Shown in pieces: positions 24,883-27,260 of a DNA stretch of 42,252 nt. The DNA is taken from positions 1 to 42,252 of the IMG/VR virus record IMGVR_UViG_3300010970_000073, one strand, 5' to 3'. A program made the position numbers and the translations under genes. The first letter of the stretch is position 1, and every line of letters begins with the position of its first letter. The notes under the pieces are model-generated. The model saw only the letters and a list, made by a program, of their open reading frames with translations, was not told where the DNA came from and ran no database searches. This DNA is from a virus.

Positions 24883-24966
24883 GTTTTATATCAATTAAGT
24901 CTGGAGCGGGAAGGCTAGAGATTGTCTCTATCCACCCTTGGAGAAACTATGTCTAAAGGAAAAGTA

Positions 24967-25695
24967 ATGAATAAAAGAATACTTTGTTGGTTTAGTTGTG
25001 GGGCTGCATCTGCTGTAGCAACAAAATTGGCTATTGCTGAAAACGCAGGTAAGTTGCCATTAATCATTGCTTACACAGAAGTAATTGAAGAACATCCTGA
25101 TAACAAACGATTTATTAAAGATTGTGAAAAGTGGTTTGGTCAAGAGGTCGTCATTCTTGGAAATGATCGGTATGAAAGATCAATTTATAAAACATTTCAA
25201 ACTTCAGCAATGAATATTAGAGGAGCTTCTCCTTGTACGCAATTGTTAAAAAAGAAAGTTAGATTAAAGTTTGAACAACCTAACGACCTGCATGTATTTG
25301 GTTATACATCTGAAGAACAAGATAGATATGACCGTTTTTTAGATGCAAATAACATAGATGTATCAGTTCCATTAATCGATAGAGGATTGTCAAAAATAGA
25401 CTGTTTGGCAATGCTTGAAAATGCTGGAATAGAACTGCCGGCAATGTATAAGCTTGGCTACCACAATAACAATTGCATAGGATGTGTGAAAGGTGGCAAA
25501 GGATATTGGAACAAAATTAAAGTTGATTTTCCAGAACAATTTGATCGTATGGCAAAGTTGGAACGTTTTAAAAAACAGACTGTTTTAAAAGACGTTTATT
25601 TAGATGAATTGCCACCAGATGCTGGTAACTATCCTCAAGAACAAAACATTCAATGTGGAATTTTTTGTCACATGGCAGAGGAAGATTACAAATGA
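24967..25695 (+). CDS. PAPS reductase-like PP-loop protein
   Basis: 242 residues. The PP-loop variant WFSCGAASAVATKLAI (residues about 8-23) marks the adenine-nucleotide alpha-hydrolase fold; a C-terminal Cys pair in NNNCIGCVKGGKGYW and the RLKFEQPNDLHVFGYTSEEQDR region agree with phage members of the phosphoadenosine-phosphosulfate reductase family. They probably activate a substrate with ATP for sulfur or amine transfer; the real substrate in phages is unknown. ATG at 24967 has AAAGGA 6 bases upstream; ATG at 24949 with GGAG is an alternative. Confidence 0.82.
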   Translation: MNKRILCWFSCGAASAVATKLAIAENAGKLPLIIAYTEVIEEHPDNKRFIKDCEKWFGQEVVILGNDRYERSIYKTFQTSAMNIRGASPCTQLLKKKVRLKFEQPNDLHVFGYTSEEQDRYDRFLDANNIDVSVPLIDRGLSKIDCLAMLENAGIELPAMYKLGYHNNNCIGCVKGGKGYWNKIKVDFPEQFDRMAKLERFKKQTVLKDVYLDELPPDAGNYPQEQNIQCGIFCHMAEEDYK

Positions 25696-25943: not shown

Positions 25944-25960
25944 AGAATTGAAGGGGAATC

Positions 25961-26848
25961 ATGAATGAGTTGGCTTTATTCGCGGGTGCTGGTGGAGGAA
26001 TACTTGCCGGACACTTGCTTGGGTGGCGAACCGTCTGTGCAGTCGAGTGGGAACCCTATCCCGCAAGCGTACTGTGCGCCCGACAAAATGACGGTTTTCT
26101 CGAAGCTTTCCCGATCTGGGATGACATTCGCACCTTTGACGGACGACCTTGGCGAGGAATTGCTCAAGTCATATCGGGAGGCTTTCCTTGTCAGGACATC
26201 AGTATCAGCGGAAAGGGAGATGGCCTCGAAGGCCAACGAAGTTCCATGTGGTACGAAATGGCGAGGGTGGTTAGCGAAGTACGACCCAAGTACGTCTTCG
26301 TGGAAAACTCCCCAGTCCTCACTATTCGGGGAGGAGTCCGAGTCATTGGAGACCTTACCGAGATGGGGTATGACTGTAAATGGACTGTTATGGGAGCAGC
26401 CGATGTTGGAGCCCCACATCAGCGCGACAGAATCTGGATTCTTGCTACCGACACCAACAGCATCCATGATGCCGTGCGAGGGGACGGTGAGGATCATGAG
26501 AAAGCATTGGGAGAGCGGAGAGTTCACACTGGAGGAGGCTTCAGCAATAGCCGGCAGGGATGTGAGGAAGTCGCAGGGCAAAGTACAGGCATGGCCTACA
26601 CCGAGCGCCAGCATGGGCAACAGGGGAACGCAAGCGGAATGGACACCAATGCGGAAATCAGGCCACACCGCGCAGTACACGTTAAACCAAGCATTACGGG
26701 ACTCCACAGGGAAAATTGGCAAACCGAACCCAAGTTGGACCGAGTGGCTAATGGGGTGGCCTATGGGATGGACAGACTTAAAGCCGTTGGCAACGGACAA
26801 GTCCCTTTGTGTGCAGCCACTGCTTGGAGAATCTTGAATGAGCATTAG
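25961..26848 (+). CDS. C5 cytosine DNA methyltransferase
   Basis: 295 residues. Motif I LALFAGAGGG (4-13), motif IV GGFPCQDIS with nucleophile Cys77, motif VI FVENSP with Glu115, motif VIII HQRDRIW (153-159) and, at the C-terminus, RLKAVGNGQVP (motifs IX-X). The recognition region (about 165-262) is low in hydrophobic residues. It would methylate cytosine in phage DNA against restriction, or mark host DNA. GGGG precedes the start. Almost the whole gene is overlapped by a second plausible gene in the +1 frame whose start is only 4 bases later. Confidence 0.92.
   Translation: MNELALFAGAGGGILAGHLLGWRTVCAVEWEPYPASVLCARQNDGFLEAFPIWDDIRTFDGRPWRGIAQVISGGFPCQDISISGKGDGLEGQRSSMWYEMARVVSEVRPKYVFVENSPVLTIRGGVRVIGDLTEMGYDCKWTVMGAADVGAPHQRDRIWILATDTNSIHDAVRGDGEDHEKALGERRVHTGGGFSNSRQGCEEVAGQSTGMAYTERQHGQQGNASGMDTNAEIRPHRAVHVKPSITGLHRENWQTEPKLDRVANGVAYGMDRLKAVGNGQVPLCAATAWRILNEH
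25965..26837 (+). CDS. Methyltransferase-overlapping protein, +1 frame (290 aa)
   Basis: Reads the same DNA as the methyltransferase one frame over, without a stop for 290 codons. It has its own family-like pattern: EELLKSYREAFLVRTSV, then WLAKYDPSTSSWKTPQSSLF, LETLPRWGMTVNGLLWEQP, ESGFLLPTPTASM, AWPTPSASM and NPSWTEWLMGWPMGWTDLKPL, which I recognise from phage and prophage proteins annotated as hypothetical or methyltransferase-associated. Its start shares the SD with the methyltransferase (ATGAATGA), and its TGA is directly followed by the ATG of rusA. Function unknown. Confidence 0.7.
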   Translation: MSWLYSRVLVEEYLPDTCLGGEPSVQSSGNPIPQAYCAPDKMTVFSKLSRSGMTFAPLTDDLGEELLKSYREAFLVRTSVSAEREMASKANEVPCGTKWRGWLAKYDPSTSSWKTPQSSLFGEESESLETLPRWGMTVNGLLWEQPMLEPHISATESGFLLPTPTASMMPCEGTVRIMRKHWESGEFTLEEASAIAGRDVRKSQGKVQAWPTPSASMGNRGTQAEWTPMRKSGHTAQYTLNQALRDSTGKIGKPNPSWTEWLMGWPMGWTDLKPLATDKSLCVQPLLGES

Positions 26849-27260
26849 CATTTGTTTTTATGTAGACACTACGCCTATCCCAAAAGGCCGGCCTAGGTTT
26901 CGTAGCATGGGTAAGTTTGTACAAACGTATACCGACAGCAAGACTAGGAGTTTTGAGGAACTTATTGCTGAACAGGCTAAAGAAGCAATGGGCGACATGG
27001 AGCCACTAGAAACGCCTTTAACAGTGTTTTTGCACTTCACGCTACCTATACCTGTCTCAGCCACAAAAAAGGTCAAGGAAGCCCTTTTAAACGCTCCACA
27101 CACCAAAAAACCCGACATAGATAACCTTTGTAAGTCGGTGCTAGACGGAATGGCAAATATTGTCTTTAAAAACGATGGACAGATTTCATCGTTACATGCA
27201 ACAAAAAAGTATGGCAATACTGGGTTTATCAATGTGCTGATCCGAGAAGAGAATGAATGA
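26838..27260 (+). CDS. rusA: Holliday junction resolvase, RusA family
   Basis: 140 residues. RusA signatures: PIPKGRPRF near the N-terminus, KPDIDNLCKSVLDGM at 91-105 with metal-binding Asp93, Asp95 and Asp103, and NDGQI at 112-116. RusA dimers cut four-way junctions made by recombination or replication, before packaging. ATG follows the TGA of the overlapping 290-residue frame and overlaps the methyltransferase by 11 bases. Confidence 0.93.
   Translation: MSISICFYVDTTPIPKGRPRFRSMGKFVQTYTDSKTRSFEELIAEQAKEAMGDMEPLETPLTVFLHFTLPIPVSATKKVKEALLNAPHTKKPDIDNLCKSVLDGMANIVFKNDGQISSLHATKKYGNTGFINVLIREENE

Follow-up and report, generated by a model that had tools for sequence, protein, structure and literature searches.

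Two conserved genes in the same phage DNA: a C5-cytosine methyltransferase catalytic chain and its likely specificity chain in the +1 frame

Introduction

Does a phage DNA methyltransferase gene carry, in another reading frame, a second gene of nearly its own length, and if so, what would that second gene contribute to the enzyme? The question is raised by a locus on a 42-kb virus contig, IMG/VR record IMGVR_UViG_3300010970_000073, all 42,252 nucleotides of which make up the window analyzed here. Two open reading frames (ORFs) lie there on the same strand in the same 0.88 kb: one in frame 0, designated M, which encodes the catalytic chain of a C5-cytosine methyltransferase, and one in the +1 frame, designated X. 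We asked of X whether it is a gene at all, what it resembles, where else it occurs, and how it might work together with M.

Results

Layout of the locus and conservation of the X start

The features of the locus are collected in Table 1; an initial annotation, made from the sequence alone, had placed both ORFs where we find them. The two starts lie 4 bases apart at ATGAATGAG, preceded by GAAGGGGAATC, and the X stop codon TGA (26835-26837) abuts the ATG of rusA at 26838. Just upstream of the pair, at 24922-25695, is a phosphoadenosine phosphosulfate reductase-like gene (phrog_424, E 7.5e-47). No restriction gene was recognized beside M/X.

In 102 of 110 homologues, the X start is found 4 nt past the M start position. 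In homologues with TTA at that M codon, the M start is located 9-18 nt further upstream and the ATGAG of X is retained, in several cases with an AAGGAG of its own. Another group of homologues has ATGTCATGG as the start, and the N terminus of X is still Met-Ser-Trp by way of a different serine codon. Because Met-Ser-Trp and ATGAG persist despite the shifted M start and the altered serine codon, X has an N terminus and a start that are conserved in their own right.

Table 1. Features of the M/X locus (coordinates are those of the window)
Feature	Coordinates	Strand	Basis and remarks
Start region of both genes: SD-like GAAGGGG followed by the ATG of M (25961) and that of X (25965)	25950..25969	+	Sequence
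M, C5-cytosine methyltransferase catalytic chain, frame 0	25961..26848	+	295 aa; PF00145, phrog_363, M.HhaI fold match
X, second gene, +1 frame, proposed specificity chain	25965..26837	+	290 aa; phrog_1008, selection, always within M
M motifs I (LFAGAGG), IV (GGFPCQ), VI (VENSP) and VIII (QRDRIWIL)	25976..26443	+	Sequence; M.HhaI alignment; omega_M 0.11-0.21
X module 1 (LPTPTASMMPCEGTVRIMRK...), proposed recognition module	26445..26591	+	Type shared with other X proteins; helices with pLDDT ~90
M residues 166-250, position of the target-recognition domain but neutral in frame 0	26456..26710	+	omega_M 1.09, omega_X 0.38, pLDDT 35-55
X module 2 (WPTPSASMGNRGTQ...)	26592..26720	+	WPTP start; modular architecture of the family
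X C-terminal motif PNPSWTEWLMGWPMGWTDL, motif IX-like	26724..26780	+	X column conservation above that of M over M residues 255-273; aligned to motif IX of L257
M motif X (GNGQVP) and C-terminal helix	26789..26845	+	M columns 93-100% conserved; X relaxes; helix in model
rusA, neighbor directly after the X stop	26838..27260	+	PF05866, E 3.3e-31

X is a second conserved gene

In synonymous-codon shuffles of M, the +1 frame contained a mean of 7.2 stops, and a +1 run of at least 290 codons arose in 7 of 20,000 trials. The +1 frame is open beyond such shuffles (P ≤ 0.01) in 115 of 119 homologous M genes, as against none of 24 ordinary single-chain C5 methyltransferases (median P of 0.60). This openness is not an artefact of searching with X, since the loci retrieved with M as the query also have a full-length +1 frame in nearly all cases. 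The identity of X to 109 homologues was 0.48, compared with 0.29 for codon-shuffled versions of the same M proteins (mean z of 9.3). Identity in the +2 frame also exceeded that of its shuffles (0.42 versus 0.27), because doubly coding DNA is conserved in all frames.

Selection was assessed by classing substitutions according to their effect in each frame, a simplified version of published tests for overlapping genes, in which multiple hits are left uncorrected. Over 50 independent close pairs, omega was 0.35 (0.32-0.38) for M (dNN/dSN) and 0.44 (0.38-0.50) for X (dNN/dNS), with a dSN/dSS for X of 0.33. When the +2 frame was put in the place of the second gene as a control, the values were 1.36 and 0.97, the expectation for a non-gene; despite the simplifications of the test, the contrast with this control frame is large. 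M and X are both conserved genes under purifying selection, and X is a second conserved gene rather than a by-product of the first.

The initial annotation had claimed two full-length genes in the same DNA, and this held, given the non-chance openness of the +1 frame and the selection in both frames; so did its description of starts 4 bases apart after one SD and of an X stop touching the rusA ATG. It had proposed that the claim would be refuted if homologous methyltransferases mostly lacked an open +1 frame or if that frame showed no purifying selection. Both checks were run and neither refuted it: nearly all homologues keep the frame open, and selection was found. Its further claim, that an open antisense frame shows the double constraint, failed. 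The antisense ORF is within chance expectation (shuffle P = 0.17) and is not conserved in homologues, and we reject it as a sign of extra constraint.

M has the catalytic motifs without a recognizable recognition domain or motif IX

The C5-cytosine methyltransferase motifs I, IV (PCQ), VI (ENV-like), VIII (QRxR-like) and X are all present in M, which matches phrog_363 (E 6.6e-63) and PF00145 (E 4.9e-32). The latter match covers M residues 4-170 only (profile positions 4-168), and the sequence alignment of M with M.HhaI is likewise confined to HhaI residues 15-175. The structure model of M aligns with M.HhaI at Z 19.1 (rmsd 2.5, 177 residues aligned); its large domain is confident, residues 189-277 are without structure, and residues 280-293 form a helix with pLDDT >80. 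Neither a target-recognition domain nor motif IX was recognizable in frame 0 of M by Pfam, selection or the model. From sequence and model (the Pfam span, the HhaI alignment and the structure), we infer that M is incomplete as a methyltransferase by itself, its small domain being missing.

One in-frame stop in the M frame, with X intact, was observed at loci L188, L204, L211, L241, L244 and L247; in L188 it falls on the Gln codon of PCQ, the catalytic motif. Such loci may be decayed prophages, sequence errors or cases of X retained without M. They were weighed as a possible indication that X acts alone, and discounted for that purpose, having been chosen by way of X and being possibly products of decay or error.

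Constraint passes from M to X and back to M along the gene

Over M residues 1-165, which hold motifs I-VIII, omega was 0.11-0.21. Over residues 166-250, omega_M was 1.09 (0.99-1.20) and omega_X 0.38. In C5 methyltransferases, the target-recognition domain is normally found at the place equivalent to these residues; M is neutral exactly at this expected position, while X is constrained there. Both frames are constrained over M residues 255-273, X more so, with several columns 97-100% conserved in X versus 59-84% in M. From residue 277, M carries GNGQVP (motif X) and X is relaxed. X is also constrained over its own residues 1-160 (dSN/dSS of 0.24-0.34).

X contains tandem exchangeable modules

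X matches phrog_1008, labeled "DNA methyltransferase" (E 1.1e-23; X residues 35-272, profile positions 10-281 of 329). Nothing past the cut-off was found for the X family in Pfam, NCBIfam or PADLOC, and the X sequence gave only chance-level matches to solved structures. The AlphaFold2 model of X was poor (pLDDT 59, pTM 0.26); structural comparison with it yielded no match at Z ≥ 2, a result of low informativeness given the quality of the model.

The middle of X, inspected in about 150 X proteins, holds 0 to 4 modules, mostly 25-45 amino acids long and opening with WPTP or alike. There were 57 module architectures among these proteins, with a given module type recurring at differing positions. 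The middle of X thus contains tandem exchangeable modules, as in the recognition arrays of multispecific methyltransferases. The type of module 1 in the window, which was assigned by eye, also occurs, differently placed, in several other X proteins. That each module reads its own DNA sequence is inferred from the modular architecture. In distant families, X is a shorter ORF inside M; the N-terminal part of X may be a clade-specific extension, since matches in these families often begin no earlier than profile position 65.

Bridging loci connect the X C terminus to motif IX

The C terminus of X, LNPxWVEWLMGWPxGWTDL, resembles the methyltransferase motif IX, RRLTPxExxRLqGFPxxW. Compared with ordinary methyltransferases, the X profile lands on motif IX without reaching significance (P of 0.0036 with 6 sequences and 0.15 with 24). 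For X proper, the motif IX assignment is transitive and rests on bridging loci, which are stronger evidence than the merely suggestive direct profile comparison. In a Verrucomicrobiales MAG genome (L257), frame 0 has motifs I-VIII and motif X, without motif IX, and the +1 ORF has a canonical motif IX, YVRRMLPSEYERLQGFPKNWT. This +1 ORF scores 23.2 bits against PF00145 175-297 (cut-off of 22) and also matches the X profile, with its motif IX aligned to the X C terminus. In a Spirochaetia MAG (L252:2897-4100), the M frame does not go past motif VIII, and it is X that reaches motif X (RLKAIGNGQVP), still in its own frame.

A dcm gene on a Bifidobacterium longum plasmid (L316:1192-1812) and L321 have motif IX in frame 0 (RRLTPRECERLQGFPDD), and they too have a long, non-chance +1 ORF (P of 0.010 and 0.003, respectively). 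The L316 +1 ORF, whose translation is matched by 120 phage records, is related to the one in L257. A +1 ORF alongside an in-frame motif IX falls outside the two-chain account proposed below; L316 and L321 might represent a second kind of dual-frame methyltransferase.

X is found inside methyltransferase genes of phages and prophages

Relatives of X were found in more than 598 encoding stretches in IMG/VR and in 180 instances in GTDB genomes; among the best 80 of the latter, which were inspected, nearly all carry X as a +1 ORF within M. A search of 398 Pseudomonadota genomes with the X profile only gave matches in 23, and every locus fetched from these 23 genomes had X in the +1 frame inside a C5 methyltransferase ORF, including families distant from M. 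Related +1 ORFs are present in methyltransferases from mycobacteriophage, Synechococcus phage and Lacticaseibacillus phage. A free-standing X, without M, was not found in the viral contigs, the 80 genome loci, phages, plasmids or the 398 Pseudomonadota genomes; the co-occurrence of X with M rests on more than 180 loci. The M/X arrangement is common in phages and prophages.

Several individual records deserve mention. Mycobacterium phage Llama gp74/gp75 (L169) is a frameshifted pair, in which the methyltransferase is split over two frames and annotated as two DNA methyltransferases, and the pair at L248, among the best 80 GTDB loci, is broken by a frameshift. Just one frame is annotated as a CDS, as methyltransferase or hypothetical protein, in the annotated phage records L001-L005, L170 and L171. 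A single 76-kb IMG/VR viral contig (G797) carries two different M/X pairs (L048 and L056).

The initial annotation had credited M with all main C5-methyltransferase motifs, which held in part: motifs I, IV, VI, VIII and X are there, and the part that failed concerns the recognition region and motif IX. Its view of X as a recurrent phage/prophage protein held, X being phrog_1008. The possibility that it raised of a modulating or specificity partner is supported, and specificity partner is now the best-supported role, on the grounds of selection, co-occurrence and motif IX.

Discussion

A proposed two-chain methyltransferase encoded in overlapping frames

We propose that M and X are the two chains of a C5-cytosine DNA methyltransferase, M catalytic and X conferring specificity. 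We regard this as the likely reading, and in it the translation of X, its binding to M and its reading of DNA are inferred. M would bind AdoMet, carry out catalysis (motifs I-VIII) and contribute the helix of motif X; X would provide target recognition through its tandem exchangeable modules, plus motif IX. Each chain would have its own start; with a single ribosome-binding site in front of the two starts and 4 bases between them, M and X would be kept in proportion. Exchange of X modules would change specificity and leave the catalytic frame untouched, and it would be free to occur because M is neutral there. The assembled enzyme would then methylate phage DNA against host restriction; such protection is probable, and it is inferred by analogy with other phage methyltransferases.

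That X completes motif IX, and that both chains are needed, is also inferred only, and there are no expression or activity data. The two-chain reading is favored by the openness of the +1 frame, the dual selection, the handover of constraint, the conserved X start, the position of X always inside M, the absence of the small domain from M, the motif IX of L257, the arrangement in L252, the modular middle of X and the existence of natural precedents. Against it stand the poor model of X, the non-significant direct profile match, X residues 1-120, whose role it does not explain, L316, and the predicted placement of the recognition domain in EcoHK31I. A bolder reading would have a broad class of phage and prophage C5 methyltransferases be two-chain, with a specificity subunit that is a mosaic of +1-frame modules, with catalysis and specificity evolving in separate frames, and with most X genes unannotated or mislabeled. 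Taken jointly, we lean towards these propositions, by a narrow margin.

Comparison with known systems

By arrangement, and with no sequence comparison, the closest known case is M.EcoHK31I (YGGCCR), which consists of two polypeptides with motifs I-VIII and X on the large chain and motif IX on the smaller (PMC3404938). The small chain is reportedly encoded in an alternative frame within the large one (Lee, Kam and Shaw 1995). X shares with it this reported placement of the second polypeptide, in another frame inside the first gene; the likeness of a motif IX on the second chain depends on an X C terminus that is motif IX-like, with support from L257 and without a significant direct profile match. 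However, the prediction for M.EcoHK31I puts the recognition domain on its large chain rather than on the small chain (PMC3404938), whereas here M is neutral and X constrained at that region. Moreover, X covers almost all of M from a start 4 bases further on and carries module arrays, and a neighboring restriction gene is not recognized here. No EcoHK31I locus was recognizable among the plasmids searched.

M.AquI has motifs I-VIII on one chain, and its second chain carries motif IX together with the distal recognition region (PMC3404938), which is the separation proposed for M/X. Motif X of M.AquI is also on the second chain (PMC3404938), whereas here it is on M; L252, in which X runs into motif X, resembles M.AquI in this respect and amounts to an AquI-like split in overlapping frames. 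In the multispecific C5 methyltransferases of Bacillus phages SPR and phi3T, the region from motif VIII to motif IX holds recognition modules in tandem, each a few tens of residues long and exchangeable. These enzymes are single chains in one frame, whereas the modules of M/X are in the +1 frame. The label "DNA methyltransferase" of phrog_1008 and phrog_363, which X and M match, is silent on the overlapping frames and on the role of X. A mycobacteriophage methylase with an out-of-frame HNH (PMC11855218) was considered as a parallel and rejected, as an inserted homing element is a different thing. We found no description of the phage M/X overlap in the literature searched; relative to the known systems, M/X is new in that the overlap runs the full length of the genes, the second frame carries the recognition array of modules, and the pair is widespread among phages.

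Alternative explanations

X could instead be a separate accessory protein (a regulator or inhibitor of M, an anti-restriction protein or a host-takeover protein), overprinted for compactness or co-expression and with no part in target recognition. The lack of a significant direct match between X and ordinary methyltransferases, the unexplained 120 N-terminal residues and the related +1 ORF of L316, present despite an in-frame motif IX, all speak for this possibility. We nevertheless consider it unlikely, in view of the neutrality of M and constraint on X at the recognition-domain site, the motif IX in the +1 ORF of L257 and the failure to find X without M. Even less plausible is a programmed frameshift in which a chain begun with the N-terminal half of M is carried on by the C-terminal part of X, with a return to M for motif X; the product would be a single-chain enzyme, for which a separate X start is unimportant. 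The M, X, M order of constraint does fit a chain that changes frame twice. However, this would take two shifts rather than one, the start of X is conserved in its own right, Met-Ser-Trp at the N terminus of X is kept by other codons, X residues 1-160 are constrained at the dSN/dSS of 0.24-0.34 given above, and in distant families X is a shorter ORF inside M.

It remains to consider whether codon usage, conserved M motifs or a nucleotide-level signal could keep the +1 frame open without its being a gene. Long +1 frames can be open by chance in G+C-rich M genes, and the excess of +2 frame identity over its shuffles (0.42 versus 0.27) might be read the same way. Virtually nothing is left of this explanation in the face of the codon shuffles, the 0 of 24 ordinary methyltransferases, the omega_X of 0.44 versus 1.36 for the +2 frame, and X columns that are in places more conserved than those of M.

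Significance

In DNA-based genomes, one rarely finds two genes of full length overlapping on the same strand with both of them old and shown to be under selection. M/X has homologues in the hundreds, and ordinary methyltransferases serve as its controls, so it is usable as a model of how two frames evolve in the same DNA. Should X be the specificity chain, as the two-chain reading has it, the specificities of these phage methyltransferases would be predictable from the +1 frame only, annotations that drop X would lose half the enzyme, and M cloned alone or synonymously recoded would yield an inactive or misdirected enzyme.
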